Assembly: GCA_947561585.1 (NCBI GenBank)
Contig: CANNZV010002302.1
Span: forward strand, 1 to 64,000
Direction: 5' to 3'
DNA: 64,000 nucleotides
Origin: Caprella mutica
Lineage: Eukaryota; Arthropoda; Malacostraca; Amphipoda; Caprellidae
Shown here piece after piece: positions 433-59,479 of the stretch (position 1 is the first letter of the stretch; each line of letters starts with the position of its first letter). The notes under the pieces were generated by a model. It made no database searches. It was not told where the DNA came from and saw nothing but the letters and a program-made list of their open reading frames with translations. Both the position numbers and the translations under genes were made by a program.

Positions 433-637
433 TATTTCTCTTTTGGCTTAAACTACTTCGGTTAATTGGGGTATATAAATATATATAAGAAATAAAAAAA
501 GATCATACTAATTATTATTGCAATTTCTAACCATATTGCATAATAGTGTATATGTACATTTGGCTGTATATCATTTATTTTAATATTACATATTGTTATA
601 TACAAATTAAATGGGAAGAAATGGAGAAAGAATTGTA

Positions 638-720
638 GTGGTCATCTCGGGAATCGAACTCAGGACTCTAGAGTGATGTACTAATGAAGCCTGCGTCTCT
701 ACCTCTCAGCCATCCTGGAC
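638..720 (-). other. tRNA-like remnant (possible SINE head)
   Basis: Read on the minus strand there is an A-box-like TGGCTGAGAGG and, about 45 nt later, a B-box-like GAGTTCGATTCCC, the spacing expected of a tRNA or tRNA-derived SINE promoter. I could not fold a convincing acceptor or anticodon stem, so a functional tRNA is unlikely. It may be a tRNA pseudogene or the head of a SINE. Confidence 0.45.
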
Positions 721-1490: not shown

Positions 1491-1557
1491 TTATGATACG
1501 TAAATAAAGCTTGAGATAGATATACCTTTTTGGTATAACTTTTTCCCGCGTAAAACA

Positions 1558-2295
1558 GACAAGGGACAGAGAGGGACATCCCGCGTGGGACAGACGTGGG
1601 ACAGAGAGGGATATCCCGCGTGGGACAGAGAGGGACATCCCACGTGGGACAGAGAGGGACATCCCGCGTGGGACAGAGAGGGACATCCCGCGTGGGACAG
1701 ACGTGGGACAGAGAGGGACATCCCGCGTACTTTTTCCCGCGTAAAACAGACGAGGGACAGAGAGGGACATCCCGCGTGGGACAGACGTGGGACAGAGAGG
1801 GACATCCCGCGTGGGACAGAGAGGGACATCCCACGTGGGACAGACGTGGGACAGAGAGGGATATCCCGCGTGGGACAGAGAGGGACATCCCACGTGGGAC
1901 AGACGTGGGACAGAGAGGGACATCCCGCGTGGGACAGAGAGGGATATCCCACGTGGGACAGACGTGGGACAGAGAGGGACATCCCGCGTGGGACATCCTG
2001 CGTGGGACAGAGAGGGACATCCCACGTGGGACAGACGTGGGACAGAGAGGGACATCCCGCGTGGGACAGAGAGGGACATCCCGCGTGGGAAAGACGTGGG
2101 ATGTGAGTGGGATTTAAGACGTGGGACAGACGAGGGACATCCCGCTTGTGTAAGACGTGGGACGTGAGTGGGATTTCAGACGTTGGAAAGACGTGGGAAT
2201 TCAGACGTCTGCAGACGTCTGAAATCCCCTGTCCCTCTCTGTCCCTCGCTAGCGTGGGATGTCCCCCTCTGTCCCACGCGGGACAGAGAGGATAT
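1558..2295. repeat. Composite GGGACA minisatellite
   Basis: Tandem array of a 24-bp module (GGGACAGAGAGGGACATCCC plus CGCG or CACG) interrupted irregularly by an 11-bp module CGTGGGACAGA, with decayed edges to about 2295. Every module is partly self-complementary (GGGAC/GTCCC, CGCGTGGGA/TCCCACGTG). The vocabulary is the same as that of the array at 1-432. The segment TTTTTCCCGCGTAAAACAGAC occurs both just before the array (about 1540) and inside it (about 1731), marking an internal duplication. Confidence 0.93.
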
Positions 2296-3912: not shown

Positions 3913-4889
3913 GTCCATAGACCTTTCAACTCTACTCACCTGTCCACCCATTTTGTTAGAAATAACAGGTGACTAATTACCTCATTATATTTGTTTCCAT
4001 ATATTAGGTTTTTCTACCCATAGATATATTTTGTCTAGATAGATATATTTTTGTTATTATATAGCAAAGCGGCTGGGTCTGAGCGGCAAAAGGTGACGGA
4101 AGGGATAGGTTGGAAGGTTTCTGGTAAGATTAGTGGTTCGAAAGATGAAGTAGGGAAAGAGTCAAAAGAGGAAGAGTTAGGTAAGGTATGGGAAAACAAA
4201 GATAAGGAACTCTGTGAGGGATGTTTAAGTAGGGTAGATACTGGGCAGATGGGATTGGAATGTGGTGGATGTAGCAGATGGTATCATGCCAAATGTGAAA
4301 ATGTTTCTAAGAAAGATTATGAAATGATTTGTAAGGTTGAGCATAAGGTAAATTGGCACTGTGGCAAGTGTGGAGATATTCTGCCTATGGTAATAAAAGA
4401 AAACAAGAGACTCCAAAAGGAACTAAGTGAAGTAAAGCAGGAGATATGTGAAATGAAAGAGAAGTTGCAAGATGTCGAAATGGGTATAAAAGCTAAGGTG
4501 GAAAAGTGTATAGAAGAAATAGAAGATACCAGGAAAGAGCAAGCAAGACTGAAGGAGGAAATGGAAATAGAGGTGAGTCAAAATCTTGGTAAGTTGAGTA
4601 AAAAGATAGAAGAGAGTAGCTGGCAAACTAGGAAGGAGATTGATGGGAAATTAGAAACCAAAGTTAGGGAAATTAAACAGGATAAGAGTGGAAGTGAGGA
4701 TAGTAAGAGGGGTATAGCCAGTCTAAGGGAAGAGTAAGAGATAATTAAGGAAGGGTATAGTAAAGGCCCAGTAGATGCTGGAGGAGATAGCAGAATGGTT
4801 AGAGACATGCAGGAGCAAGTAGAGCAACTAGAGAAGGATAGGAGGAAGAAAAATGTTATGATATTTAATTTGAAAGAATCTGGGAAAAC

Positions 4890-5032
4890 CCAGTCTGCAG
4901 AAACTGGTAAAGCACTAAAGTGTTCGTAGAGATCTCTTATTCTGTTCGTAGCAAAATCAATGTAAATATAGGGATTCATTCAAAATTGTTCGGAGAGAAT
5001 ATCCCAAATATCTCACATATTCTGCAGACTGG
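4890..5032. mobile_element. CCAGTCTG-ended MITE inside LINE ORF1
   Basis: Ends are the 13-bp perfect inverted repeat CCAGTCTGCAGAA. It is flanked by the perfect 8-bp direct repeat GGGAAAAC (4882-4889 and 5033-5040). An 8-bp duplication is typical of hAT (and also P) transposases. The interior is non-coding and near-identical to the copy at 27026-27160. The insertion is younger than the LINE. Confidence 0.95.
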
Positions 5033-5485
5033 GGGAAAACTGACCCAATTGGAAGATATGCAGACGATGAGAGAATGTGCAAGGAATTGTTCGGAAAGTT
5101 GAGTATGGAGGATGTAGGTATAGAAACTGTGGTTAGACTGGGTAAAGCAGCACCTAATAGAGCTAGGCCACTTCTCATTAAATTGAACCAGTTTAGGGAC
5201 ATTAGGATAATAATGCAGGCAAAGAGTAGGTTAAAGCAAGTAGATGGATTTGGTAATGTCTATATTGAAAGGGATTTAACTGTGGTAGAGAGGGAGCAAA
5301 ATAAGAAGTTGAGAAGTGAATTATACGAAAAGCGGGATGAAGGGAAAGGATGGTTCATTATTAGAGGGAGAAAGGTTGTAGAGGTAGAGGGATCAATGGG
5401 AGAGATGTGTAGAAGTGAAGGTAGGTTTGGTCATGCAGGTAGGGGAGTGGGACAGAGGTGGAGAGGTCAGGGAGGTGGACTTAGT

Positions 5486-5562
5486 CAGTCGCAGAGAGGT
5501 GGTCAGTCGCAGAGAGGTGGTCAGTCGCAGAGAGGTGGTCAGTCGCAGAGAGGTGGACCTGG
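5486..5562 (+). repeat. 18-bp tandem repeat coding SQRGGQ
   Basis: Four copies of CAGTCGCAGAGAGGTGGT keep frame within ORF1 and encode repeated Ser-Gln-Arg-Gly-Gly-Gln. RGG-type repeats commonly bind RNA; here that is inference. The copies are nearly identical and could vary in number between element copies. Confidence 0.85.
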
Positions 5563-5693
5563 TCAGTTGCAACAGACTACCAGTGGAGTGGTGGGAGAGA
5601 CCAACCAGCAGAGCAGTGGAGATGTCTCACAGAGGGCTCAGGAGGGTGCTGCTATCAACTGAAGTCTGAAGGCAGCCAGAGGGAAAGAAAACT

Positions 5694-8600
5694 GTGAGTA
5701 ATAAAAATAAAGGTGTGAATGATATGGTGAGTGTGTTTTTGTTGAATGTGCAGGGGCTTACAGTGCATAAATGGAATGAATGGCAAGAGATGGTTGAGAG
5801 GATGAATAGTAAGATAAAGATTTCAATGTTTACTGAAACGCAGCATAAGGTAGAGAGAGTGTTTTTTGGTGAGGATTATAAGTATGAGGTTGGTATGAGG
5901 AATGAGCAAGATAAGAAGGGTGGTGGACTTATGATAGGATCGAGTGATGAAGTTAGTATTGTTAGGGTAGAGAGTGGTAATCCAGATGTTTTGTGTGTAG
6001 ATATTGAAATGAGAAAGAAGAAGATGAGAGTGATACTCACTTACTGGGATGTTAGAGATAATGATAGGAATGAGAGGATAATTGTGTGTATTAGGGGTAT
6101 TGTGGAAGAGTATGAAGGGAAGTTAATGGTTCTGGGTGATATGAATGCACATATAGGTTTTTTAGGTCAGCAAGAATTAAATAGGAATGGAGAGAAGTTA
6201 TTAAATTTGATGGATGAATGTAGACTTGTTATGTTAAATTTGGATGAGGCATGTAGAGGTGAGATTACTAGAGAAGAGGGTATGCATAAGAGTGTGATTG
6301 ATTTTGTTTTGGTGAATGGATTTTTGTATGAGGATTTTGTGAAGATGGATATAGATGAAAGGAAGGAATTATTTGATTTGTCAGATCATTGCATGATTAG
6401 AATTGATTTTAAAATTGGTATGAAGTGTAGTGAAGAGGTGATGCAGAAAAATATAGAGTACTATAGAGTGAAGGATGATATGAAAGAGAGATTTTTGCAA
6501 TGGATGGAAGATAGACTAACAAGAGTGAATGTGGGTGAACAGGACTGTGTGTTTCATGAGGCTGTGACTGAAGTGTGTGAGGAACTGTTGAAGAGAACCA
6601 GAGTGATTAGAGGTAATTTGAATGTGAATGAATGGGAGAGTGTGTGGATGAATGAGGAGATAAGAAGAGAAGTAGGTGTGCGTAAGCAGTTGAACAGAGT
6701 TAGAAGGAATCTACAGGAAGGTGCAGAAAGGAATGAGGCATGGGTAAGGTATAGGGAGCAAAAGAGGAAAGTTGCAGATATGGTGAGAGAGAGTATAAGA
6801 GAGTATGAAAGAAACAAGACGGATGAGATAAGAGGCAATAGAGACTCAGGTAGGAAAATGTGGCACAACATTAGTGTACTGAGAGGAGTGAGAAAGAATG
6901 GTGTTGTGAAAGTTTATGAAAGTGGGAATGAGATGAATGCGGAGGATTTGAAGAATAAGATGTGTAATTTTTGGAAACAAATTTACCAGATGCATGATAA
7001 TGATGTGATAGAGGTATGGAATGACAGGACTAGAGAACAGTATGTGCAGGGTGACTATAGAGATGAAGATAGGGTGAATGTGGTGTATGAGAATGTTTTG
7101 GAGCATGGTAGAGGAGTGTTTAGAGTGGTAGATATTAGAGTGGATGTGCCTCTGAATCTTATAGAGCATTATAGTATGACAAGAGGAAGAGTGGAAGATG
7201 TAATTAGGAGAAGGATGGATGAGGTTGTGGTGAGCAGTGTGGATGTCAGGAAAGCGTTAAAGAGAATGAAAGTTGGAAAGCAACCTGGAATAGATGGTAT
7301 TAAACCAGAAGTGTATAAGTGGATGATAGAGAGTGAAAAATGTATGGATGAAATGTGTAGATAATTTAACAGTGTGTTGGATAGTGGTGTGCCTGTGAAT
7401 GAATGGAGTGTGTCAAAGACTTGTATGATTCCGAAAGTAAATAAACCTAGTGTGAAAGATTTGAGACCAATTGCCTTGTTGAATGTTGAGTATAAGATTT
7501 TTATGAGTGTAATGAAAGAGAAGTTGATTGAGCATGTGAGAGTGAATGGGCTGATGAATGAGTTGCAGATTGGTTTTACGAGTGGGAGAAGGATAGAAGA
7601 TAATTTATTTATGCTGAGTTATGTGATAGAGTCATGTAGGAGGGACAAGAAGGAATTGATTGCTGTGTTTGTGGATTTTGCTAAGGCGTTTGATAGTATT
7701 AGGAGAGGAAGTCTGATTGAATGTATGAAAAGGTGTAAGTGTGATCCCAGAATGATTGATGTATTTGCGAGAGTGTATGAGAATGATAGTACTGAGTTTA
7801 GTGTGAATGGAGAGAAAATGGGAAGAATGAATGTGTGGAATGGTATTAGGCAGGGGTGTACTTGCTCACCCCAGTTATTTATAATGGCAGTGAATGAGAT
7901 AATTAGTGGTTTGCAAAGGAGTGGTTTAGGTTTTAAGAACGAGTGTGTGTATGTGCCAGCTTTGTTCTTTGCGGATGATGGTGTGATTTTTGGGAACAGT
8001 GTGAGAGAGGTTGAAAGAATGATTGATGTGCTTGTAAGTAAGACTGCAGAGATAGGAATGACTGTGAACAAGAGTAAATGTAATGTGCTTGTGTTTAATA
8101 GGAAGATGGATGTTAGAAGTATAAGAGGAATGGATGTAGTGAAGGATGTGAAATATTTAGGAGTGAGAGTGTCAAGTGGGAAGGATGTTTTTAAAGTGCA
8201 CAGGGAGAACGTTATGATGAAAGCTAGAAGGATGAGTAACATGACGTACTCTGTTATACACAAGTCGTGTAACAGAGTACTGATTGGGAAGACGTATTGG
8301 AAGAGTGTAGTAATGCCGAGTTTGTTGTATGGAAGTAGTGTGTTTTGTTGGAATGTGAGTGATATTGAGAGACTGCAAAAATGTGAGAATGCTGTATGGA
8401 GGTGTGTGTTGGGGGCCCCATCATATGCACCTCTGGTAACTCTCCAGGGTGAGGTGGGGTCTTCAAGTATGAGAGCAAGAGATATGAAGGCAAAGTTGAA
8501 TTATGAGAAGCATGTGAGGAATGGTGAGAATGACTTGTTGAAAATGATGTATGAGGATATGTGTGAATGGACCAAGTGTAAATGGTTAGAGACTGTGAAA

Positions 8601-9077
8601 GTGTATAGAGAGAGAGTGGGAGTGCGAGTGAATGAATTGGATGATATGAGTAATGAATGTATAAAGAGAAAGGTGTATGCATGGGAAAGTGATAGGTGGA
8701 ATGAGGAGAGAATGCAAAAAAGTACAATTAGTTTGTATAATGAATGTAAGAGTGAGATCAGAGATGAAGGATTGTATGAGAATGACTGGGGATCTGTTTT
8801 GCTGTATAGATGTAGGAGTAATAGTCTGAGGCTGAAGTGGTGAGAAAGATATGTGAATGGGAATGTTGATTGTGTTGCATGTGACTTTGGAGTGGTAGAG
8901 AGTTTGGAGCACTTTTTGTGTGTGTGTGAATGGTATGAGTGTGTGAGAAGAGAATTTGGAATGAGTGGTGTTAGTGTGAAAGATCAGTTGTTTGGAAGTG
9001 GTTTAGTGTTGGCAAGGAAGTGTAGAAGATACCTGGAGTGTATGTGGAGAAGAAGAAATTTGAGAATGGATGAATGA
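5694..9077 (+). pseudogene. LINE ORF2, APE endonuclease and reverse transcriptase, two stops
   Basis: This protein nicks target DNA and primes reverse transcription from the nick. One reading frame holds the whole protein but is cut by stops at 7362-7364 and 8841-8843. Endonuclease motifs are present: LNVQGL, the Glu in FTETQ, GDMNAHIG, DFVLVN and SDH, at about 5733-6400. Reverse transcriptase motifs follow: LRPIALLNVEYKIF (about 7461), FVDFAKAFDS (about 7668), GIRQGCTCSPQ (about 7840) and the catalytic box FFADD (about 7967), where Phe replaces the usual Tyr. The C-terminus has a C-x2-C...H-x3-C knuckle (about 8875-8935). The frame opens upstream of the first ATG at 5724. Apart from the two stops the frame is intact, suggesting fairly recent death. 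Confidence 0.95.
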
Positions 9078-18300: not shown

Positions 18301-21300
18301 TGATATTGACTATTATGTCTATTTCTGTTAAAGGCTTTCATAATAATTATTCAGTTTCAACTAACTACTTCTTTCGTTATATTATACAGGGTGGGGCGTA
18401 AGTTTGGAAGCAAATGAAAGTGCATATTATAATCCAACGAAAAATATATTTAATAATTTACAGTTATGTATTATTACATAAGGGTTTTATGAATTCAAAA
18501 ATCATTAATTTATTCAAAATGTCCCCCCTTGTTTTTAATAACAGCCTCAAATCTCCTCCGAACTCCTCCTACTGCGGCACGCAACTGTTCTTGTGAAATT
18601 TCCTTCCAAGATCTCTGGAGCGAACGCTTTAAATCATCCACACTGCGATGGAATTTACCACAGGCCTTTGATTCAAGAATGGACCATACCGAAAAGTCCA
18701 TAGGATTAACATCTGGGGAGCAGGGAGGCCACATTTCTTTGGACCAAAACCGTGGAAGATGGTCATGGCACCAGTTTTGAGTGACATTTGCAGTATGTGA
18801 AGTCGCGCCGTCTTGCTGAAATGTCCATAGAGTGTCATTACCGAAGTGATCCTTAGCCGACTCCAACATTGGCGTCAAAATATTCTCAATATAACATTTA
18901 GCATTGATTTTGGCGCCTTGTTCCGCAAAAATTAAAGGAGATCTCCAAGTTTCTGAAACGGCGGCCCAGACCAATACTGAAGCAGGTTTCGTGGTTCTGT
19001 GGACAGTTTTTTGGTTGTATGGGATGTCTTTTGCACTTTTACCAATTATTCTGTCATTCTTCCGGTTGTGAGCCATTTCCACTGTGAAAATTTTTTCGTC
19101 AGACCAAACAATTTCACCAGCCGTGCCAGACTTCAATTCTCTCAGAAGTGCTTTGCTTCTCTCCAATCTCTTTTTCTTTACAGCTTCTGACAGAGTCTGT
19201 CTCTTTTGGAGGGTGAAAGAGGACATCTTTAGGTCTTCTTTGACAACTCTTCTAATTGTTCTGGGACTCGCATTAGCTGTTTTGGCTAACAATCGTATTG
19301 ACCTTTTCGGGTTCCTCCTGATCTTCTCTCGGGCACATTTTATCAGTTGTTTGGTGCGTTGTGAGCGTGGTCTACCACTTCTTGGACGATCAGTCAAGTC
19401 TCCTCTCTCATTAAAACGCTTCACACACTTCCAAACAGTCGATCTCGCTATTGAGAGAAGAGAGTCTTTAAAATGATGGAATCTGACTTCCCGGCACTGT
19501 GTAGAGCAATAATGGCTTCTCTTTTGTCTGACATTTTTGAATTGACTAAATTTTTGTAAAAAATAACACTGCCACGTCATAATGTAGTGTCTCTACTATA
19601 GTTCAAACCCTATCACCTACTTAGGAACTTATTTTCAAGAATTATATTAATGTTTGAAAAATTGCTTCCAAACTTACGCCCCACCCTGTACAAGAATACC
19701 ACTCTTGAATTTGTTTGTTTATGTTGGTGTATGTGGTGAATGGAAGAAAAGGGGGGTGTAACTATTGTAATCTGGATCATGGATTTTATTTTAACCAGGT
19801 TTATCATTTTTTTAACACTAACAGTTTTAGAGGATAGCGCTAGTGTTATGCTCATCAAGTACGAGGTCTTAGATTTCTTTTTTCTTCACATTCCTTGGTC
19901 AGTGACAGCATTCACGGAGTAGCTTTTCTGCAACCATGAGCTTCGTCACCGACGGGGATAAGTGACTTTGTTCATGGAGCCTCTTTCCTTTCTGACTGCA
20001 TCTTTCAGTCCCTTGTACTTATTTTTACCTTTGTTGTCAGTATATAGCTACCTATATTAATTTATAATCAATTTTTTCCGTCCCTTTAAGGTAGATTGGG
20101 TATAGTTTATCAATGCTGCATGAAAGGATATTTTTACTCACTTAAAATATTTTCTACTAATAATCAATCTAAAGGTGTTGATTAATCAATTTCCTGATTA
20201 TTTGAAAAAGTTATATGATTGAGTTCTAAATTAGCTACTTTCCATAATTCCCATGCTAGCTATATTGTACCTGTTATTCCTCTTTATCAATTCTGTTGAT
20301 TATTAACATTGGTCATCATACTAAAGGTGAGAAATATTCTTAATATCTAGCTATAAAAAAATTATTTCTGCCAATACCATTAGCATAGTTTATCATAGCT
20401 AATACTTTTAAAGTTTCTCTACAATTTAATATTAAAGTGATTCACATAAATAATAGGAGTACTCTGACTACTTTACTCTTGATGTTGTGGCTGAGTTGTT
20501 TTAACTCATTATTTGCCTGCAGACTCATGCCTACTGCGACAGTCCTGACATAATTCTGTGTGGTAACAAAGTGGACCTGACGGAGGAGAGAGTAATCAGT
20601 GAGAAGAGAGCCAATGATCTCGCCCAGACACTAGGGTGAGTGAGAGTAGAGAGAAAGAACTCACTGAGGTGAGTGAGAGTAGAGAGTGAACTCACTTTTT
20701 TTTAGCTCTTTTAGCTCTAGTTTCTATTAGGGATAGATAGTTCCGAAGTTGAATCACAGAATCAGCAAAATGTTTAAACCTGTTTAATAATGTGAACTAA
20801 CACTGCTACGATAAATAAATATAATTACTAATAAAGGTAGTGAAGGTGAATACCGGTGGTGAGAACTGTGGCTTGTTAAAGACTTAATAAAGGGCAATCC
20901 AAATAATATTTATTACATGTGGATCAATACAAATATTAGTTTTCTGGTCTGTGACAAAAACAAAGACAAATATCAACAAACTGGTTTCAAATGCTAATAA
21001 TGAAGGTTGTGACAATATGCTTTCAAAATTATAGATCTTAAGAATATCATATCTTAAAGGAATGGAATTGTATTGAATAGCTACTGTATACCGCTGGTAG
21101 CTATACACTATTCAATAGTAGAATGGAATAGTATTGAATAGCTACTGTATACCGCTGGTAGCTATACACTATTCAATAGTAGAATGGAATAGTATTGAAT
21201 GGCTACTGTATACCGCTGGTAGCTATACACTATTCAATAGTAGAATGGAATTGTATTGAATAGCTACTGTATACCGCTGGTAGCTATACACTATTCAATA

Positions 21301-36500: not shown

Positions 36501-39500
36501 TCCCATCAAATTTCAGACAATTTGGTTGAATACTTTTGAGTTATTGAGTTATAAATGGCCTTGACCTTGCTCTTTGACCTTTGACCCGATCGTTCCCAAA
36601 ATGTAACAAAATGGTTCCTGCATATTGACCAATCGTCCCACCAAGTTTCATGCAATATGGTTCAATACTTTTTGAGTTATAAATGACAATGACCTTGACC
36701 TTTGACCGGGTCGCTCCCAAAATTCTAGCATCAGGTCACTGGACATGGACCAATCGTTTCACCATATTTCAAGCAATTTTGTTAAACTCTTTTTCAGTTA
36801 AGCGAATAACAAGATGATAAATAAATATATCCCGATGAAAATATGACCTTCCCGCATTCTGCGAAGTTAATAAATGTATTTATTATTTTAGTTATTAGTA
36901 TTGCTCAGACTAGAAAGAAGGAGATGTAACGAAATTAGTATTATTATTTGGAATTATAGGTTGAGTATCTTGTATACGGCTTTGTTTTGAAGGAATGATT
37001 TCGTTAGGATTATTATATTGTTTTGGAAATCGACTATTAATCAACCTACAATAATTATTACGAGCTTTTTACAAATACTTTTTTCTCTCTCTCTCCCTAG
37101 GTACAATCAGCTGACAGAAATCCCCTCGAGTCTGAGCAAGTGTACCCTCCTCACCAAGTTTGATGTAGAGGGCAATCAGATCAGTTCCTTACCAGAGGGA
37201 CTCCTCTCCTCCCTATCTGGTCTGGACACACTGACTCTGAGTCGCAACCTCTTCGCCTCCTACCCCGTGGGGGGCCCTTCCCAGTTCACAAACGTGCAGA
37301 GTATCGTGTTGGAGCACAACAGGGTGGACAAGATACCCTATGGCATTTTCTCTCGGGCAAAGTACCTCACCAAACTCAACATGAAGGACAATGCACTCAC
37401 TTCTTTGCCTCTTGGTAATAACACTATCTAGGGTCACACAGTACACTTAGTTAGCCCCTCAGTACTCGGAAAGTGGGTGTTAGCATTGGTTAAGATATCT
37501 AACAGGTCGTATTTGTTCAGGATCTTGTTACCACCCACTTTCAGAGTACTGGGTGTGTCTGGTAATTGAGTGGTAACTCTTAACTAGTGATAGTAATTAT
37601 CTACGGAAATTGTATGAATATATTTCTATTTTAACAATAACTACCTAGTTAATTTTCCTCACAATCAAGTTTAACTTCTAAACTTTATCAATGAATATAG
37701 CTATTAATATTTATAATCATTTCTCAGACATTGGCGACTGGACTAACATGGTGGAGTTGAACCTGAGTACTAACCAACTGACGAAGGTACCTGACGACAT
37801 CTCTAACCTCATCAATCTGGAGGTACTGACCCTCTCCAACAACCTCCTCAAGGTGAGTACTGCTAGGGGAAACCATTGGGTACTGCTAGGGGAACTAGCA
37901 ACCATTGGGTGCTGTTAGGGGAACTAGCAACCATTGGGTGCTGCTAGGGGAACTAACAACCATTGGGTGTTGCTAGGGGAACTAGCAACTATTGGGTGCT
38001 GTTAGGGGAACTAGCAACCATTGGGTGCTGCTAGGGGAACTAACAACCATTGGGTGTTGCTAGGGGAACTAGCAACCATTGGGTGCTGCTAGGGGAACTA
38101 GCAACCATTGGGTGCTGCTAGGGGAACTAGCAACCATTGGGTGCTGCTAGGGGAACTAGCAACTATTGGGTGCTGTTAGGGGAACTAGCAACTATTGGGT
38201 GCTGTTAGGGGAACTAGCAACCATTGGGTGCTGCTAGGGGAACTAGCAACCATTGGGTACTGCTAGGGGAAACTATTGGGTACTGCTAGGGTCACCACAG
38301 CAACTATAAAGTATTCTAAATGTTTTATTTTAGCCAACATATTTAGTCATTATATTAATTGTCAATTCATATTATTTTTACTCTCCCCCAGAAAATCCCG
38401 AGCAGCATAGGAAACCTGCGCAAACTGGTGACTTTAGAGCTGGAGGAGAACAGACTGGAGGGACTGCCTCCAGAGATAGGGTTCCTGAAAGAGTTAGACA
38501 CCCTCACTGTACAGAGCAACCAGCTCAGTGCCCTGCCCCGTGCTATAGGGTGAGTAACAGCTCTGTGCTATAGGGTGAGTAACAGCTCTGTGCTATAGGA
38601 TGAGTAACAGCTCTGTGCTATAGGGCGAGTAACAGCTCTGTGCTATAGGGCGAGTAACAGCTCTGTGCTATAGGGCAAGTAACAGCTCTGTGCTATAGGG
38701 CGAGTAACAGCTCTGTGCTATAGGGCGAGTAACAGCTCTGTGCTATAGGGCAAGTAACAGCTCTGTGCTATAGGGCGAGTAACAGCTCTGTGCTATAGGG
38801 CGAGTAACAGCTCTGTGCTATAGGGCGAGTAACAGCTCTGTGCTATAGGGCGAGTAACAGCTCTGTGCTATAGGGCGAGTAACAGCTCTGTGCTATAGGG
38901 CGAGTAACAGCTCTGTGCTATAGGGCGAGTAACAGCTCTGTGCTATAGGGCGAGTAACAGCTCTGTGCTATAGGGCGAGTAACAGCTCTGTGCTATAGGG
39001 CGAGTAACAGCTCTGTGCTATAGGATGAGTAACAGCTCTGTGCTATAGGATGAGTAACAGCTCTGTGCTATAGGATGAGTAACAGCTCTGTGCTATAGGA
39101 TGAGTAACTGCTCTGCCTCGTGCTGTAGAGTTTGTTAGTCACAAAAAGACTAGCTACCAACAGAGATTGGAACTCAACGTTGAAGGCTCTCGGTCTAAAT
39201 TAACTTGAAAATATGAACATTTCGTAGAGTATCTATAAATATTCTCTATCTTAGACTACAAAATTATAGAAATACTATTTTCCAGCACATTATTTCATGT
39301 CATTAGATCTCTTTTCGATTAGCTATATAATCATAATAGCTACAGTAAACTCTTAGTCTTATCCATAATAAATCTGAGATTTTTATTTGATATAGAATTA
39401 TTTCATGGTAATAAGAATAATTTGATATGTAGCTATATATGTCTTGCAATAATTCCTGAGGTCAGGGAATATTTTCAAGATTACCAATGGAAAAGTAGTG

Positions 39501-41213: not shown

Positions 41214-41454
41214 ACACTCTGGGGTTCCACCATACCAAGTCTCAAAGATTTATCCTTTAGTTTGTGTATTTAAGTTGTGTAAACATTTATAAGTGACTCG
41301 AAAACTTTATTTTAAATCAGTGCTGTATTCTTTTTATGTGCCTGTGTTTTATGTGACGTCATACGTCAGTTTGTGACTTATTGGGACACATTTTAATGCT
41401 CAGTGACACTTTATTTATTGTGACTTTTATTGTGAAAAATGTGGTGGAGACAAC

Positions 41455-42037
41455 AAATCGTGGTGGAGACTTCAAACAACCAATTGTGGTGGAGACTTCG
41501 AACAACCAATTGTGGTGGAGACTTCAAACAACCAATTGTGGTGGAGACTTCAAACAACCAATTGTGGTGGAGACTTCAAACAACCAATTGTGGTGGAGAC
41601 TTCAAACAACCAATTGTGGTGGAGACTTCAAACAACCAATTGTGGTGGAGACTTCAAACAACCAATTGTGGTGGAGACTTCAAACAACCAATTGTGGTGG
41701 AGACTTCAAACAACCAATTGTGGTGGAGACTTCAAACAACCAATTGTGGTGGAGACTTCAAACAACCAATTGTGGTGGAGACTTCAAACAACCAATTGTG
41801 GTGGAGACTTCAAACAACCAATTGTGGTGGAGACTTCAAACAACCAATTGTGGTGGAGACTTCAAACAACCAATTGTGGTGGAGACTTCAAACAACCAAT
41901 TGTGGTGCAGACTTCAAACAACCAATTGTGGTGGAGACTTCAAACAACCAATTGTGGTGGAGACTTCAAACAACCAATTGTGATGGAGACTTCAAACAAC
42001 CAATTGTGGTGGAGACTTCAAACAACCAATTGTGGTT
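41455..42037. repeat. 26-bp array downstream of SHOC2
   Basis: About 22 copies of GGTGGAGACTTCAAACAACC plus AATTGT, starting about 240 nt after the stop codon. It may be transcribed as part of the 3' UTR; no AATAAA lies between the stop and the array. Open in all three plus frames, but this is an artefact of the unit. Confidence 0.96.
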
Positions 42038-48314: not shown

Positions 48315-51300
48315 CTATTGAGTAGGGCTCTGAATTCTCAAAGGTACCATGAACTTGTTCTTGAAAGGAGACTTGTAGTCGATACCCAACTCAAAAAAGA
48401 CGGTGGAGGGAATTGCTAATTTCACTAGATGAGGCAGACCTGAAAATAACACAAAAGTGTGAAATAAATTCACCATGGATATATTCATCGTCGAGACATC
48501 AAGATATCCATTATTGTGCATTGATAATATATTTCTGAACTTTGTAATGATTTATTACTGAAGTCCTAAAAGTGAGAAGTGATGACAACAAGAGATTTCA
48601 GAGGTGAAGACACTGACCTTGTTCGACGGAGTAGTTAAGAGGTAGTACAGGTACAACGAGTGCTCTGGCAGGTACAAAGTACTTAGGTTTGTAGCGCATA
48701 ATGTCAGGGGGGTTGAGGGCCACCACGGGGCAGATCTGATCTTTGGCAAATTGTGTCATCTGAAGCACCCAGTGTTCATCTTGACAAGCTAAAACAAATG
48801 AACAAATATAGAGATGTGAAAAGAGAAACTGATAGTGGAAACAAAATATTCTAAAGTGGAACGATTTCACAAGTGTTTTATTAAGTAGAGAGATGTTGTA
48901 ACAAGTGGAGAGATGTTCCAACAAGTAGAGAGATGTTCTAACAAGTAGAGAGATGTTCTAACAAGTAGAGAGATGTTCTAGCAAGTAGAGAGATGTTCTA
49001 ACAAGTAGAGAGATGTTCTAGCAAGTAGAGAGATGTTCTAGCAAGTAGAGAGATGTTCTAACAAGTAGAGAGATGTTCTAGCAAGTAGAGAGATGTTCTA
49101 GCAAGTAGAGAGATGTTCTAACAAGTAGAGAGATGTTCTAACAAGTAGAGAGATGTTCTAACAAGTAGAGAGATGTTCTAGCAAGTAGAGAGATGTTCTA
49201 ACAAGTAGAGAGATGTTCTAGCAAGTAGAGAGATGTTCTAACAAGTAGAGAGATGTTCTAGCAAGTAGAGAGATGTTCTAACAAGTAGAGAGATGTTCTA
49301 ACAAGTAGAGAGATGTTCTAGCAAGTAGAGAGATGTTCTAACAAGTAGAGAGATGTTCTAGCAAGTAGAGAGATGTTCTAACAAGTAGAGAGATGTTCTA
49401 GCAAGTAGAGAGATGTTCTAACAAGTAGAGAGATGTTCTAGCAAGTAGAGAGATGTTCTAACAAGTAGAGAGATGTTCTAGCAAGTAGAGAGATGTTCTA
49501 ACAAGTAGAGAGATGTTCTAGCAAGTAGAGAGATGTTCTAACAAGTAGAGAGATGTTCTAACAAGTAGAGAGATGTTCTAACAAGTAGAGAGATGATCTA
49601 ACAAGTAGAGAGATGATCTAACAAGTAGAGAGATGAGTGTTCTAACCAGTTCACAAGTGTTCTAACCAGTTCACAAGTGTTCTAACCAGTTCACAAGTGT
49701 TCTAACCAGTTCACAAGTGTTCTAACCTGTTCACAAGTGTTCTAACCAGTTCACAAGTGTTCTAACCAGTTCACAAGTGTTCTAACCAGTTCATACGTGT
49801 TTTTAACAATAGGTTAAACAAGTCATAACAATATGTGTAACCAGGTAGCTAGCCGTAAGGAAATGTGACCCTATGACGTTAGGATCACTCACTTGCGTTG
49901 TCAGTGTGGTCCAGTCTAGCGTCAATGAGGATATCAAAGTACTTGTCGCTGTCCAACTGGTACGGTTTGTTGAGTACCTTTCCCCCACACAGCATGTAGA
50001 GGCCCATCTCCTCAGTGAAGCAAGGGTCTCCCCAGTACACCGTAGGGGCCAGCACTGTAACAGATATCTCCTGTGTTGAGAGCTGGCGGGCCGTGTTCAG
50101 CCCCAGGGCCCCTTGCTCGTGGTTGCCACAGAGGATCACCACTTCAGGAGTTTGGTGACTGTTCTTGTCTTCAAATCTGAAAGAGAATTAGCAGTCAGAC
50201 CAAGCAAGTTCAAACAAAATATTTCAGTTAAAAATGCAATGGTTCTAACTTTCGGTGCTTCAGTTCACAATTGTAATTTAAAGAAATTAGTACAACGATT
50301 ACAACCAAACTAATTAAAAGATAACTAGCTGTGGTTAATATGTGATACAAGGGTGCACTTTGGTTTCCCACCTGATGATGCCTCCAAGGAGTTTATTACC
50401 CACCTGATGATGCCTCCAAGGAGTTTATTACCCACCTAATGATGCCTCCAAGCAGTTTATTACCCACCTGATGATGCCTCCAAGGAGTTTATTACCCACC
50501 TGATGATGCCTCCAAGGAGTTTATTTCCCACCTAATGATGCCTCCAAGGAGTTTATTACCCACCTAATGATGCCTCCAAGCAGTTTATTACCCACCTGAT
50601 GATGCCTCCAAGGAGTTTATTACCCACCTAATGATGCCTCCAAGCAGTTTATTACCCACCTAATGATGCCTCCAAGCAGTTTATTACCCACCTGATGATG
50701 CCTCCAAGGAGTTTATTACCCACCTGATGATGCCTCCAAGGAGTTTATTACCCACCTGATGATGCCTCCAAGGAGTTTATTTCCCACCTAATGATGCCTC
50801 CAAGGAGTTTATTTCCCACCTAATGATGCCTCCAAGCAGTTTATTACCCACCTGATGATGCCTCCAAGGAGTTGCATTACGAGTTCTGTGGTAGAGCGAC
50901 CAGTCACTTCTATTTGTCGTGATTTGCTGTAGCCACTGTTAGCGACATGGTCCATCATCACACTGTGGAACTCTGGAGTCACACTCGGCACCTCAAAATT
51001 GAAATCTGAAAATAAATGGTTAGGATTGCAGTTAAAATTCAATGAAAACAGTTAAGAGTTCGATTATGTTCTTTTACACTAGCTAGCTACTTTTTTAACC
51101 TAACATAATTTAGAGACAACGTGATAGAATATATATATAAATAAGCTCCTATCTTTTGAAAGATGGTTCTAAACCAAAAAATAAAGCAGAAAATATATGC
51201 AACTCAATAAAATGGGTAACTATACCATTTCTATGATTTGTTAATTTTTTTAACAGTTTTCGCTATCACCTCTCAGATTACACTTCAATCTATGTTTTAA

Positions 51301-54300
51301 ATTTTTTCAGTTATATCTGACGTCGGTTGCTTATAATTACGAGTATGGTTGAGAAAAGGCCTAAGCAACAAAGCTTGAAAATGAAGTTTCTCATGGAAAA
51401 GTTATCCTTGTGACTGAAATAAACTCTGGGTATTTTAATTGTTTTATCAGTATTTTATGCAAAGACAGGTAACAAACATCAGTTATATCTCGGTAAACCT
51501 CCAAAAAAATTAATTACAAACTTTGGATGCTTTTCCTGAACAAAATGTGGCTTAGAAAGTTAGCCCCTTCAGCTGTCATGTCTGTAGTTACCTGTGGTGT
51601 TCACTTTATCAGCTATCATGTCTGTAGTTACCTGTGGTGTTCACTTTATCAGCTATCATGTCTGTAGTTACCTGTGGTGTACACTTTATCAGCTGTAATG
51701 TCTGTAGTTACCTGTGGTGTACACTTTATCAGCTGTCATGTCTGTAGTTACCTGTGGTGTTCACTTTATCAGCTATCATGTCTGTAGTTACCTGTGGTGT
51801 ACACTTTATCAGCTGTCATGTCTGTAGTTACCTGTGGTGTTCACTTTATCAGCTATCATGTCTGTAGTTACCTGTGGTGTACACTTTATCAGCTGTCATG
51901 TCTGTAGTTACCTGTGGTGTACACTTTATCAGCTGTCATGTCTGTAGTTACCTGTGGTGTACACTTTATCAGCTGTCATGTCTGTAGTTACCTGTGGTGT
52001 TCACTTTATCAGCTATCATGTCTGTAGTTACCTGTGGTGTACACTTTATCAGCTGTCATGTCTGTAGTTACCTGTGGTGTTCACTTTATCAGCTATCATG
52101 TCTGTAGTTACCTGTGGTGTACACTTTATCAGCTGTCATGTCTGTAGTTACCTGTGGTGTACACTTTATCAGCTGTCATGTCTGTAGTTACCTGTGGTGT
52201 ACACTTTATCAGCTGTCATGTCTGTAGTTACCTGTGGTGTACACTTTATCAGCTGTCATGTCTGTAGTTACCTGTGGTGTACACTTTATCAGCTGTCATG
52301 TCTGTAGTTACCTGTGGTGTTCACTTTATCAGCTGTCATGTCTGTAGTTACCTGTGGTGTACACTTTATCAGCTATCATGTCTGTAGTTACCTGTGGTGT
52401 ACACTTTATCAGCTGTCATGTCTGTAGTTACCTGTGGTGTACACTTTATCAGCTGTCATGTCTGTAGTTACCTGTGGTGTACACTTTATCAGCTATCATG
52501 TCTGTAGTTACCTGTGGTGTACACTTTATCAGCTATCATGTCTGTAGTTACCTGTGGTGTACACTTTATCAGCTATCATGTCTGTAGTTACCTGTGGTGT
52601 ACACTTTATCAGCTATCATGTCTGTAGTTACCTGTGGTGTACACTTTATCAGCTATCATGTCTGTAGTTACCTGTGGTGTACACTTTATCAGCTGTCATG
52701 TCTGTAGTTACCTGTGGTGTACACTTTATCAGCTGTCATGTCTGTAGTTACCTGTGGTGTACACTTTATCAGCTATCATGTCTGTAGTTACCTGTGGTGT
52801 ACACTTTATCAGCTGTCATGTCTGTAGTTACCTGTGGTGTGCACTTTATCAGCTGTCATGTCTGTAGTTACCTGTGGTGTACACTTTATCAGCTGTCATG
52901 TCTGTAGTTACCTGTGGTGTACACTTTATCAGCTGTCATGTCTGTAGTTACCTGTGGTGTACACTTTATCAGCTGTCATGTCTGTAGTTACCTGTGGTGT
53001 ACACTTTATCAGCTGTCATGTCTGTAGTTACCTGTGGTGTACACTTTATCAGCTGTCATGTCTGTAGTTACCTGTGGTGTACACTTTATCAGCTGTCATG
53101 TCTGTAGTTACCTGTGGTGTACACTTTATCAGCTGTCATGTCTGTAGTTACCTGTGGTGTTCACTTTATCAGCTGTCATGTCTGTAGTTACCTGTGGTGT
53201 ACACTTTATCAGCTATCATGTCTGTAGTTACCTGTGGTGTACACTTTATCAGCTGTCATGTCTGTAGTTACCTGTGGTGTACACTTTATCAGCTGTCATG
53301 TCTGTAGTTACCTGTGGTGTACACTTTATCAGCTATCATGTCTGTAGTTACCTGTGGTGTACACTTTATCAGCTATCATGTCTGTAGTTACCTGTGGTGT
53401 ACACTTTATCAGCTATCATGTCTGTAGTTACCTGTGGTGTACACTTTATCAGCTATCATGTCTGTAGTTACCTGTGGTGTACACTTTATCAGCTATCATG
53501 TCTGTAGTTACCTGTGGTGTACACTTTATCAGCTGTCATGTCTGTAGTTACCTGTGGTGTACACTTTATCAGCTATCATGTCTGTAGTTACCTGTGGTGT
53601 ACACTTTATCAGCTATCATGTCTGTAGTTACCTGTGGTGTACATTTTATCAGCTATCATGTCTGTAGTTACCTGTGGTGTACACTTTATCAGCTGTCATG
53701 TCTGTAGTTACCTGTGGTGTTCACTTTATCAGCTATCATGTCTGTAGTTACCTGTGGTGTACACTTTATCAGCTGTCATGTCTGTAGTTACCTGTGGTGT
53801 ACACTTTATCAGCTGTCATGTCTGTAGTTACCTGTGGTGTACACTTTATCAGCTGTCATGTCTGTAGTTACCTGTGGTGTACACTTTATCAGCTGTCATG
53901 TCTGTAGTTACCTGTGGTGTACACTTTATCAGCTGTCATGTCTGTAGTTACCTGTGGTGTACACTTTATCAGCTGTCATGTCTGTAGTTACCTGTGGTGT
54001 ACACTTTATCAGCTGTCATGTCTGTAGTTACCTGTGGTGTACACTTTATCAGCTATCATGTCTGTAGTTACCTGTGGTGTACACTTTATCAGCTGTCATG
54101 TCTGTAGTTACCTGTGGTGTGCACTTTATCAGCTGTCATGTCTGTAGTTACCTGTGGTGTACACTTTATCAGCTGTCATGTCTGTAGTTACCTGTGGTGT
54201 ACACTTTGTCAGCTGTCATGTCTGTAGTTACCTGTGGTGTACACTTTATCAGCTGTCATGTCTGTAGTTACCTGTGGTGTACACTTTATCAGCTATCATG

Positions 54301-57300
54301 TCTGTAGTTACCTGTGGTGTACACTTTATCAGCTATCATGTCTGTAGTTACCTGTGGTGTACACTTTATCAGCTATCATGTCTTTTGCTAGTTTTATTCC
54401 CCTGTCTGCCTTAACAGGTACAGTGTCCTGTGGAATTACATTCTCATCACAGCGATACTTAGGCTCTGGCTTGTGACTCTGAAATGCAAAGATGAAAATT
54501 ATTAATCTATAATGTAGCTATGTTCGATTAAAATTAGTACTAATTATGAGGAGGTGATAATAGTAGCTAAATATTTTAAATAAATCATGATATACCGAAG
54601 AACACTATTTATAACTGATGAACACTGACTGTACAGTGTGTTTTTTTTCTTTTGCAAGACTTTGAGCCCCTACTAAGAATATTTGAAATAAGAATTTAGA
54701 GGAAACAAATATATTTTCTTGAAGATAAGGCTTGGTACTTACATTTCATGTAATACAAACTTATTTGAAACTCATTGAAAACACTTCTAAAGGCTCTCTA
54801 CAAAATGTGTTGAAAATGGTCACCAGAATCCTGTAGTTAAAGTCTTGCGCGCTTCAAGACGCTCTTCGTCACTCTCTTAATTACTGCTGCGTCATAATTT
54901 GCAGATGAGAGTCCATATGATATTGTCGAATGAAACAATAGAAATGACAAAAAAATAATGATATTTGTTGATATTGTGGACGGAAAATTCTATTGTCCAA
55001 GCATTCATCGATGACGACGGCCCTTGTGACTCTGTTAATGGTTCCTATAACATGGCTTTGCTGAGAGACAAAGTGTGGCAAACTTTTTTGAGCTACTGCA
55101 ACATGACGCAAACTCAGGTGGATGCAAGATGGTGATCCATCTGATTGTACAAGAGTGGCTAAGCAGTTCTTGAAGAAAAATTCCAAGGACGAGTTACCAG
55201 AAGACACTGAGATCTTCTGGCCAGCACTTAGTAAGAACTCAATCCTCTGGATTTCCATTTCTGGGCTACAACACAAAATATTTTGTATTCGGAAAAACTT
55301 CAATCCATTCATGATTTCATGATATGATAGAATTTAGTGTGTGAAGCTGTTTGGTGCAAATTATTACGCAGTAACAATTGAGAAGGTGACGAAGACTCGA
55401 AGAGCGTCTTGAAGCATGCAAGACTTTGACTACAGGATTCCGGCAGCCATTTCAAACACCTTCTGTAGATAGCCTTTAGAAGTATTTTGACCGAGTTTCA
55501 AGTCAGTTTGTATTACATAAATTGTAAGTACCAAGCCTTATCTTCAAGAAAATATATTTGTTTCCTCTAAATTCTTATTCCAAATATTCCTAGTAGGGGC
55601 TCAAAGTCTTGCAAAAGAAAAAGAAAAAACACTGTACAGGGTGTTTCAGCATTACGAGACCTGTAGGAAACTCGAATAACTACAAAAGTTTTAATCCTAT
55701 GAAAAAACAAATGCACCATTGAAAAAGAGAAGAAAAAATAGATTTAATTAGATAAGATAGTCTTTCTTGAATATTATTCCTTTCAGATGTTCTCCATCTA
55801 GTACTCTTAAAGGGGCAGTACAGTCATTTTTTGTTTTAACAATTTTAATGTCAAATGATTGCTCATAAAAATAAGGTATATCATGTGAAATTGAAATGTT
55901 CAATAAAATCTAATAATGGAAATATATCATTTTATATATAATTAATTTCTTAGAAAATGCTAATGGTAGATGGCGCTACAATCAGTGGCGCCATCTTGTA
56001 AACAATCCAATTGAGATAAGTTTCTAGATTCTAGATCAAGTGAAGAGATGGCTTTATTTTTAAAACTATGCCTTCTTGTCTACGAATTCACATAATCTTT
56101 TCACCATTTTGACGCAAACAAAGCTTGATTACTGCATAAATAAATTAATATGAAAAGAACAAACATACTCACGTACATACTAATGAGTGAAAATGCTTCC
56201 GCTAGGTGTCGCTAATTTTATTATATACTTTTTATATGAACATTTTAAAAATAAACGAGCATTCAAATATTACATAATTAAATATTCTGAATAGATTTAA
56301 AACCAATTTGGCGATTCTTTGATTTTGACTTTACTATCCTTTTAAACACACGTCAAGATTGTCCATGACAATTTTAAAGAATCAGTTAAATTGATTTCCA
56401 GTTTCGGTGATGTTAATGGCCTGCTGGATCGCCTGATCTTTACCCCCTTGACTTCTTTTTGTGGGGATATTTAGAAAATAATGGGTACCGAAACAATCCA
56501 AGAACATCACACGATGTTAAAGAGAACATAACTCAAGCAATTAGTGCAATCACACCTCAAACATTTGCCAATGTGATGCAGAACATGGTCATGAGAGAAG
56601 ATGAATGTTTAAGACTATATGTAGATGATCTGAAAGGAATAATCTTCAAAAAAGACTAATCTAATTAAATCCATTTTTTCTTCTCTTTTCAATGGTGCTT
56701 TTATTTTTTTCTCAGGAATAAAAATTTTGGAGTTATTTGAGTTTCTTTCAGGCCTCGTAACGCTTAAACACCCTGTAGCTATATACAAATGTAGTCAATC
56801 ACACTCTAGACCAATACTGATATTTTGGGCAAGATTATATACTAAATAGGTTTAGTTAAGAACCTTATTGCATTCACAGAATGAATTTCTTTGAAATCAA
56901 GTTTGAACAAGAAAAAGTTAAATAATGATTAGAGTTTACTGAATTTGAATATCATTAGTGTAATCTTTCACCTTAATTTCAGAGTCCAGAGCTTCACTGT
57001 TAGGATAACGACGATTGATTTCTTCAGCCACTGCCTGATGAAACGAGGATGGGAAGTATTAAATATTTTGTAGGTAGGGTTGTAACAATAAAGATCTCAA
57101 GAAAATCAAGACAAAATGAAATGGTATCGAATACTATATACATATTGTAGCTATGGTGTTGAATTCTTTCCTGTTTATATTTGAAGGATCTATGATATAA
57201 AGAAAAAAGTTTTACAACCCTTCTTATAACTTATAGGTAAGTAATTTCAGGTGCACATTACGATTGACCAGCTTGAGTATATTGATTATAATTCATAACA

Positions 57301-59479
57301 AACAAGTGGAGCCCCTGGGTTATACAACCACGGAAAGCTACAATATTGGTATATTTTACTTGAAACTATTCCTAGTAGCTACCTACCAATATCTAGATCA
57401 CTAAAAGTTAATTTTTGAAGAAAATAATTCAATTTCTAAAATCTGCCCAGACAATATGAAGATATAACTATGTTTTTCCATTTCAAAATAAAATCTAGTA
57501 CATCTGTGAAGTACTGATGAAGTTATAGGTAAATAGTTAACCAAGAACAGGAAAATTAGCAATAACAGCCAAGGATTATTAGCTTATTGCTTTGGTCCTC
57601 TTAATCTCCCTCTCTTACCTTCTTATCAAACAGTTTATTGCTCTCTTCAAAGTCAAAGTCAACATCTATGTGACTCTCCAGGCAGTCTTCCCCAAAGGTG
57701 TTCACATTGTGTCGGTGTATTTTCTTTGAAGTACTATTGTTCTTTTGTCTAAAAAGAGGGGCAAATTATGTCTACTCTCATTAACCGAAATAGTACCTAA
57801 AAAGTGGCTTACTTTTGCTTTCATTTCAATTGAAGTAGCTACCTAGAAACAAATTTAAAATATGGAGTGAAGGCAACGAAGTGCCTATGGAATATTAGTT
57901 ATACCTAAACAAAATGACTATTAAAAAACAGCAGAAGATAAAGCTATTTGCTAGATAAATAAATACATATACTAGAATGAAAATATAAATGTCAATCTTA
58001 ATACACAAGATAATTAATAGATTGAAAAGGAGTATCTTCTAAATTAAACATTCAATGAAACGACAGCTTATACCTAATTACAAACCTATAGCCATGAACA
58101 GGTGAACTGTAGGGGACATATGGCTGCTTTGTATTTCTGAAAACAGAAAATGAGAGTTATTGGGACAGAAAATGAGAGTTATTGGGACAGAAAATGAGAG
58201 TTATTGGGACAGAAAATGAGAGTTATTGGGGCAGAAAATGAGAGTTATTGGGGCAGAAAATGAGAGTTATTGGGGCAGAAAATGAGAGTTATTGGGGCAG
58301 AAAATGAGTTATTGGGGCAGAAAACGAGAGTTATTGGTTTTTTAATTCTTACCACCAGACTTTTGACTCATAAGAAAAAAAGATATACATTTTTCTTATA
58401 ACTATGATTAAAAAATCTCAGGAAAAAGCTGGTGGAAAGACTTGTACAACCCTGCGTGTGAACTGCCCTTTAGATATTGATTTCAAAATATGGAGAAGGA
58501 ATTAGTCTAGAAACGTACCTACTTCTACTCTTGATGTCAAAATGAAGTGGTAATTCAAATGATTTGTAGCCATTCAAAATTTTATAATTTGAGGGTGAAG
58601 AAAGAAATTGATCTTAGGATATAGGACAGCATAAAGCCACAAACATTTGAACTAATCAATAGATAATTAGGAATATAACTAATGGAACTAATATCTAGAA
58701 AAGAAATGATAAGATCCCCATCGATAGAACTCACTGTGATATAGTATCTAAAGTTGATGCCCTTTGATCTTTCTGTTTATTTGCATTCCTCCCTCTCCTT
58801 CTCCTCTCTGATGTAACAGGCTTAACAGGCGCTTCATTTCCTGCTTTGCTGGTGTCTTTAGTATCTTTAGTACTCTCATTTACGGCAGGATTATCCGTCT
58901 TGTATACTTTCCCGGGCAATTCTTCCACTTTCTTGGGAGCGCATTGAAGAATTTCAATATTTTCTATTTTGGAGGCACTGAAAATTGCAATAGGAAACAT
59001 AAATTAACAAAGATACCTATTTATTATCATAAATATAGTAAATTCAAATAAAGAGATGAGAAATTGTATCAGTAACAGAGCAGGAAGTTAACATTCTTAT
59101 CATAACTGATAAATTATATAATCATTTATCATTTATTTAATTTATTAATTACAGCAGTTTTCCATTCACCACAGATAGCATCAGGATAGAGCCCAGAAAA
59201 CAACTAAAGATTACAATATAATTAAAGCAAGAGGATCTATTTTGGATAAATGGAAAGCTGTACAAAATTTTCAATGATAAAGAGAATCAAAATGAAAGCA
59301 GCTCACCTGATACTCATGTCCTTTAATTTAGTTGGTCTTCCATCATGTATTATCTCATTGAGGATAAGTTTTTGAGTGCCGGTCTCAATTCCAGTGACTG
59401 TGCCTTGCAGAAAACCCATCCCATCCTTCATCTCAATGGATATCCGTGATCCAATGAACTTCTCTTTTTCTGCTGCCAT
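48315..59479 (-). CDS. EDC3: EDC3, enhancer of mRNA decapping (10 exons)
   Basis: EDC3 is a P-body scaffold that binds DCP2 and DDX6 and stimulates decapping. Coding exons in gene order: 59307-59479, 58735-58977, 58086-58136, 57619-57748, 56972-57034, 54352-54478, 50852-51005, 49893-50176, 48618-48788 and 48315-48439. All have AG/GT borders and matching phases, giving 506 residues (human EDC3 has 508). Residues 1-60 form the N-terminal LSm domain (FIGSRISIEMKDGMGFLQG). A Lys/Arg-rich linker RRRRGRN lies in exon 2. The FDF motif (DVDFDFEES) is at 184-192 in exon 4. Residues from about 265 to the end form the YjeF_N domain, with MQLLGG, VVILCGNHEQGALGLNTARQL and the C-terminal DYKSPFKNKFMVPL. 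Introns 6, 7 and 8 carry large tandem arrays, and intron 5 carries nested transposons. No coding damage was found. Confidence 0.97.
48883..49635. repeat. 20-bp array in EDC3 intron 8
   Basis: About 37 copies of ACAAGTAGAGAGATGTTCTA. The first base alternates A/G (ACAAG, GCAAG) over long stretches in a partly regular pattern, which implies that 40-bp or longer blocks were duplicated after the single unit. It ends about 90 nt upstream of the exon 9 acceptor as the gene is read. Confidence 0.97.
49636..49803. repeat. Second 20-bp array in EDC3 intron 8
   Basis: About eight copies of GTGTTCTAACCAGTTCACAA directly joined to the previous array. Both share the word GTTCTAAC and the 20-bp period, so one may derive from the other. 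Confidence 0.95.
50367..50872. repeat. 32-bp array spanning the EDC3 exon 7 donor
   Basis: About 15 to 16 copies. Read on the gene strand, each unit is CTSCTTGGAGGCATCATYAG (20 nt of the exon 7 end, coding LLGGIIR) followed by GTGGGTAATAAA or GTGGGAAATAAA (12 nt of intron). The true donor is after 50852. Every copy keeps AG|GTGGG. Confidence 0.96.
51571..54383. repeat. 40-bp array spanning the EDC3 exon 6 donor (~70 copies)
   Basis: 2.8 kb of a 40-bp unit. On the gene strand each unit is 32 nt of exon 6 end (AGACATGATAGCTGATAAAG then TGTACACCACAG) plus 8 nt of intron (GTAACTAC). The true donor follows 54352. All copies I can read keep CAG|GTAACT; variation is confined to ATAGCT/ACAGCT and TGTACACC/TGAACACC. 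Continuing past the true donor reaches an in-frame TGA inside the first unit. Confidence 0.97.
54634..55634. mobile_element. Tc1/mariner-type element A, long inverted ends
   Basis: Arms of about 260 bp (54634-54895 and about 55360-55634) are inverted copies, with outer ends CAGTGTGTTTTTT and AAAAAACACTG. TA lies at 54632-54633 and 55635-55636. Between the arms is a decayed transposase. It lies in EDC3 intron 5. Confidence 0.9.
54985..55325 (+). pseudogene. Transposase remnant of element A
   Basis: Plus-strand pieces in two frames: FIDDDGPCDSVNGSYN (about 55003-55050), similar to the stretch before the second catalytic motif of Tc1/mariner-type transposases, then MQDGDPSDCTRVAKQFLKKN (55122 on), the usual QDG...PH-like motif, then FWPAL. 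At least one frameshift separates them; N-terminal and C-terminal parts are missing. Confidence 0.75.
55807..56346. mobile_element. Element C, MITE nested in element B
   Basis: Left TTAAAGGGGCAGTACAGTCA and right TTGACTTTACTATCCTTTTAAA are inverted repeats. The middle has a perfect 9-bp hairpin AGATGGCGC...GCGCCATCT at about 55973. TTAA occurs at both edges and may be the target. Confidence 0.82.
56425..56659 (+). pseudogene. C-terminal transposase fragment of element B
   Basis: From about 56434 one frame reads PLDFFLWGYLENNGYRN followed by a helical tail with AISAITPQTFANVMQNM, ending at TAA 56657-56659. PLDFFLWGYL is the region of the third catalytic Asp in a widespread Tc1/mariner-like transposase. 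The rest of the enzyme is gone. Confidence 0.85.
57080..57215. mobile_element. Decayed GTTGTAACAATA MITE
   Basis: Left GGGTTGTAACAATAAAGATC and right AGTTTTACAACCC are inverted; the core has TATCGAATAC. Distant relative of 21006-21442 and 46715-46878. Confidence 0.6.
58137..58335. repeat. 22-bp array abutting the EDC3 exon 3 acceptor
   Basis: Eight to nine copies of GAGAGTTATTGGGACAGAAAAT. On the gene strand each unit reads TAACTCTCATTTTCTGTCCC plus AA, a possible branch-point word (TAAC) followed by a pyrimidine tract. The last unit runs straight into TTTTCAG at the exon 3 border (58136). Confidence 0.9.

Follow-up and report, generated by a model that had tools for sequence, protein, structure and literature searches.

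A 40-bp minisatellite carrying seventy donor sites at an exon–intron boundary of EDC3 in an amphipod crustacean

Minisatellite-like repeats that straddle exon–intron boundaries are known from amphioxus as 'mirages', the original report being, as cited, that of Canestro 2002. In the excerpts drawn on here, they are present in Adh3 and in the globin genes BflGb6 and BflGb9, involve duplication of both 5′ and 3′ boundaries, have AG/GT in many of their units (of 10–72 and 150–160 bp) and are unstable in length, with regular splicing undisturbed (PMC3087553). PGBD5 is added, and TnC cited, in the part considered of a further account (PMC3902484), and concerted evolution with sparing of the edge units features in the excerpts from both (PMC3087553, PMC3902484). 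Repeats in human segmental duplications also occur at exon–intron boundaries, the variable ones averaging 30 bp × 4 in the portion of that source used (PMC2812944). Tandem duplication of AG/GT-bearing sequence has, in addition, been invoked in the creation or change of introns (Rogers 1989, Zhuo 2007, Gao and Lynch 2009, all as cited in the excerpt of PMC3087553).

The array dealt with here is in the EDC3 gene of Caprella mutica, within a 64-kb stretch of DNA free of Ns that was analysed as a whole ('the window'). By anatomy it is a mirage-type minisatellite: its repeat spans an exon–intron boundary with the donor in register, the units carry AG/GT signals, and 40 bp is within the 10–72 bp range of the mirages as excerpted. 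Unlike those, its host is an amphipod crustacean and not a lancelet, and it has 70 units compared with the 3 or 6 given for BflGb6 haplotypes. With introns attributed, in the excerpted account, to AG/GT tandem duplication it shares a duplicated AG|GT at an exon boundary that has been taken into an intron, the difference being that the EDC3 intron was pre-existing and has been lengthened. No report of such arrays in amphipods was found in the limited collection of literature searched, and, as far as the literature consulted goes, exon-boundary minisatellites, previously described in lancelets and in human duplications, now include a crustacean example. The preferred interpretation, with a probability of roughly 0.7, is that the EDC3 array is a young, near-neutral minisatellite across the boundary, whose extra donors are ignored. 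Coordinates are collected in the table.

Table. Arrays and associated gene features in the window (positions are those of the window)
Feature	Position	Strand	Details
EDC3 40-bp minisatellite, 70.4 copies	51569..54383	-	TRF, 98% matches, no indels
EDC3 exon in which the array starts (exon 6 of the initial annotation)	54352..54478	-	54352-54383 is array unit 1
First donor, GTAACT	54346..54351	-	sole donor yielding the homologous frame
Intron after the array exon, 3346 bp	51006..54351	-	array accounts for 2783 bp of its length
Following EDC3 exon	50852..51005	-	LLGGIIR end
Second donor-spanning EDC3 array (next intron, i7), 32 bp	50367..50873	-	16 donors, all AGGTGGG
Two adjoining 20-bp arrays in EDC3 intron 8	48883..49801	-	start 91 nt in, off splice sites
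22-bp array making up the pyrimidine tract directly upstream of an EDC3 acceptor	58144..58337	-	consensus unit (minus strand) without AG
SHOC2 donor-spanning array, 25 bp x 23	38540..39115	+	GT in units 1-2 only, then 16 GC, 5 AT
SHOC2 29-bp donor-abutting array	37871..38291	+	starts 18 nt into the intron
RAB27-like gene, 33-bp donor-spanning duplication, two copies	20635..20696	+	both copies GTGAGT

Joined by hand, the minus-strand exons match the YjeF_N domain as well as human EDC3 (3d3j, E value 1.4e-33), and are identical to Hyalella azteca EDC3 at 125 of 286 positions, with a match also exon by exon. Exons 1–4, the array exon and four exons after it were located; the search for the gene's exons did not find exon 5. 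An initial annotation of the window had proposed about 70 tandem copies of an exon end plus its donor on this strand of EDC3, and the copy number (70.4 by TRF, in one assembly), the unit anatomy, the gene and the strand are all borne out, as is the assignment of the array exon to EDC3; its number, 6, remains that annotation's own count. On the minus strand each unit consists of 32 nt of exon end followed by 8 nt of intron start. The 5′ edge of the array is 32 nt within the exon, leaving 95 nt of unique sequence upstream in that exon, and the 70 donors, whose first G's run from 54351 to 51591, are spaced exactly 40 nt apart throughout. CAG|GTAACT, said to be kept in every visible copy, is indeed intact in 70/70 units.

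The consequences for the reading frame are sharply asymmetric. The junction formed with donor 1, VYTT|D, aligns with VYST-D of Hyalella and EFCT-D of human EDC3, and this donor is thus by homology the ancestral one. That only the first donor keeps the frame, with a stop in the first extra unit, had also been claimed and holds, an in-frame TGA starting 20 nt beyond donor 1. Translation of the products of donors 2–5 gives stops in each, including that of donor 4, although its length is in frame; donors 6 to 70 likewise give stops, since each product includes the first TGA. Seventy donors of identical sequence, with near-identical flanks and only one compatible with the protein, constitute a natural experiment on 5′ splice site choice.

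As to origin, a tandem duplication of a short stretch across the exon end and its donor would have provided the seed, and unequal exchange or slippage may then have enlarged it. Splicing would be at donor 1, adjoining the unique part of the exon; its use in vivo is suggested by frame and homology. The later 69 donors would lie within the intron and be removed with it, and array growth would be close to neutral for that reason. Splicing at a later donor would leave a premature stop in the transcript and make it a likely target for nonsense-mediated decay, so purifying selection would be expected to keep the first donor. The other donors would be dispensable and subject to drift or homogenization, with loss of GT in some arrays.

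Variation among the 70 units is sparse. Only 5 of the 40 positions vary (-26, -24, -17, -13 and -10), three of them as singletons, and none of the 9 nt before GT does, so that the initial remark that positions neighbouring the donor vary is misleading. Two of the variants, those at -24 and -10, are common, and either would alter a residue if converted into the exon (ATA to ACA, and TAC to AAC or CAC). Units 22–36 are the same as units 43–57, i.e. a block of 15 units has been duplicated, and none of 2000 shuffles of unit order reached this length. The low variation together with the block duplication makes this a young array in which blocks have been duplicated, which favours the second of the two alternatives initially offered for the constancy of the donor, namely youth of the array and not selection. 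The internal duplication is also consistent with length instability, as far as one assembly can reveal it. It is pertinent as well to whether the copy number is an artefact of assembly, the real number being much lower. Dependence of the number on a single assembly counts towards that, but ordered unit variants, the duplicated 15-unit block among them, are unlike simple stutter, and other arrays of varied unit types are present on the same contig; the artefact is very improbable.

A functional multi-donor element would be marked by donor bases kept beyond the rest of the unit. With only 5 of 40 positions variable, chance alone can be expected to leave the donor unchanged: five positions placed at random would all fall outside it with a probability of 0.26 for 9 nt and 0.42 for the 6 intron bases, values from a test of little power given how few variants the array has. 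Constancy of the EDC3 donor accordingly carries little information for or against selection. Selection on the donor bases, raised in the initial annotation, was nevertheless set aside, there being no signal in this comparison and most units of two sister arrays, in SHOC2 and in a CCT gene, being without GT. The description of the donors as strong is also overstated: their predicted pairing with U1 is -8.5 kcal/mol, whereas the consensus reaches -13.7, and of 3000 GTs sampled from the window 3.2% are predicted to pair with U1 equally well or better.

These figures bear on a different proposal, in which the multiplicity of donors would draw in U1 or set up competition with donor 1, and array length would tune the amount of unproductive EDC3 mRNA or a delay in splicing. 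The initial annotation had suggested similar roles, as a U1 sink, a splicing timer or a switch for unproductive splicing, and the analysis brought no evidence for these. The 70 intact donors with their uniform, moderate predicted pairing, the stop that follows use of any later donor, and the large share of the intron that the array occupies are all in keeping with such regulation. Its standing is reduced by a donor invariance that is within chance, by the GT loss in the SHOC2 and CCT arrays, and by the predicted unpaired fraction of the first eight donors, which is similar (0.42–0.62) and gives no mark of a switch; regulation of this type is unlikely. Masking of the later donors by RNA structure was a separate candidate and was rejected on the same similarity across the first eight.

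Comparison with other arrays is informative on what becomes of surplus donors. GT is present in every unit followed in the EDC3 intron 6 array (70/70), in that of EDC3 intron 7 (16/16) and in one on contig C856 (36/36; the first exon there is without protein-match support), a constancy that selection would also predict. In the SHOC2 donor-spanning array it is confined to the first two units, and in a CCT gene on contig C1962 the first of 50 units followed has GT and the other 49 have GA. Predicted U1 pairing of the first donor, and the mean of the later ones, is -8.5 and -8.5 kcal/mol for EDC3 intron 6, -12.6 and -11.3 for EDC3 intron 7, -11.2 and -7.4 for SHOC2, -10.0 and -6.7 for the CCT gene, and -10.0 and -7.2 for C856; in all five arrays followed from the first donor, that donor is thus predicted to pair with U1 at least as well as the mean of those after it. 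For the duplication in the RAB27-like gene the second copy has -11.6 versus -10.9 for the first, in a row that is one base out of register. This two-copy duplication is possibly the first step of an array, and the arrays of the window may represent stages of one process that leads from a two-copy start to seventy units and in which decoys are either kept or decay. At the other end of introns, the lack of AG in the consensus unit of the array before an EDC3 acceptor is as expected if AG upstream of the true acceptor is harmful, in this one instance. Two further elements in these genes are a 26-bp array of 22.6 copies (41450-42036), directly downstream of the SHOC2 stop codon and probably in the 3′ UTR, and an intronic, uninterrupted transposase-like frame of 360 aa in the RAB27-like gene (18510-19592, minus strand; DDE_3, HTH), which we take to be of the Tc1/mariner type.

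Whether arrays tend to start at donors was considered for the 11 TRF arrays or duplications within three genes of the window, the two adjoining 20-bp arrays being merged. Gene models were made by hand, numbers are small and the interval of -40 to +35 around the donor was picked after seeing the data; within those bounds, the upstream edge of 5/11 arrays is in the interval, against 0.63 expected at random (P 0.0003) and 0.85 with exon-sparing placement (P 0.00065). Leaving out the EDC3 40-bp array gives 4/10, with respective expectations of 0.59 and 0.70 (P 0.0019 and 0.0039). The corresponding number for acceptors is 1/11, with 0.58 expected (P 0.45). The RAB27 donor coordinate used was one base off, too small a displacement to alter the result, and an earlier run on 7 arrays in two genes had 4/7 at donors. 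Several GTGGGACA-rich arrays, of 35 and 59 bp, are also found at the start of the window (107-2163).

An excess at donors with none at acceptors would be anticipated if donors, or the first intron bases, were hot spots at which minisatellites of this lineage arise, e.g. through transcription-linked breaks; donor-edge arrays would then reflect a mutational tendency of the whole genome and be more than accidents that are tolerated. The same edges could, however, result from selection against arrays elsewhere. Word counts over the assembly (903 Mb in 7200 contigs, the window being on contig C2302) at first sight go the same way, triples of CAGGTRAGT in tandem spacing numbering 3253 compared with 160 for the reversed word (~20-fold). 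A shorter donor word gave 19213 versus 8026 reversed (2.4-fold), and the single word 15168 versus 7331. But triples of the scrambled word CAGTGRAGT number 2471, with 1132 for its reverse, and those of GATGRCAGT 949, with 1711 for its reverse. With scrambles giving such values, word counts evidently depend on a few large satellites, and genome-wide donor enrichment was dropped as a candidate. Triples of an acceptor word were fewer than their reverse (3753 versus 6982). Counting separate places instead, merged and copied by hand from the matches listed, gives 9 for the donor word (contig numbers up to 46), 13 and 9 for the scrambles (up to 58 and up to 357) and 26 for the acceptor word TTTTYCAG (up to 63), several of the last being single matches. 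Expressed as arrays per 50 contig numbers among the matches listed, this is 9.8 for the donor word, 11.2 and 1.3 for the scrambles and 20.6 for the acceptor word, again not what a donor hot spot would lead one to expect. The genome is rich in minisatellites, a genome-wide preference for donors is not established, and the hot spot is a doubtful explanation of the edges seen in the three genes.

The pattern is also not everywhere. Eleven regions around PF00118 matches (L039–L049) contain 10 arrays of at least 2.5 copies, in 6 of the 11 regions; five (L041 and L043–L046) of the nine CCT/HSP60 regions, L039–L047, have no array of at least 2.5 copies. Three of the 10 arrays were set against splice sites, and by eye the one on C1962 starts at the donor, that on C1814 starts within the first HSP60 intron, ~30 nt from its beginning, and that on C856 has donor-like units. 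A wider proposition is that in this amphipod lineage minisatellites arise preferentially at 5′ splice sites, where a 'first donor wins' rule would make them harmless, with introns lengthening from their 5′ ends by copied exon ends and the exon end itself joining the concerted evolution of the array; it is put forward as a tentative and rather improbable generalization.

Several other features of the DNA came to light. Full-length, uninterrupted GroEL-type chaperonin frames (e.g. on C1, C7181 and C3100) suggest the presence of bacterial genomes in the assembly. A plasmid search with 801 bases gave no match, and none was expected. Positions 4039-8843 of the window are non-LTR retrotransposon-like; spread over several frames, they match reverse transcriptase (PF00078) and, weakly and under the cut-off, PHD. 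The skew of G over C on the plus strand is very strong there, reaching 0.43–0.69 in 2-kb bins between 4001 and 10000. Further along the window's contig there is a 17-bp array of ~183 copies and ~3.1 kb (L050 9540-9997 together with L051 1-2660). The mitochondrial contig, C5068 (L057, L058), has sensible frames with code 5. Among the named sequences in the best 120 of 7999 hits, its COX1 is 94% identical to that of the whale louse Cyamus ovalis, followed by Grandidierella (85–86%) and Hyalella (81–82%), so that the host is most likely an amphipod close to the Cyamidae. Amphioxus was rejected as host on this COX1 result, and a sponge, considered because of the bacterial contigs, on COX1 and the mitochondrial code. 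At 31,582 bp the contig runs about twice around a circle of ~15.4 kb, and its ND5 is on the strand opposite to ND4.
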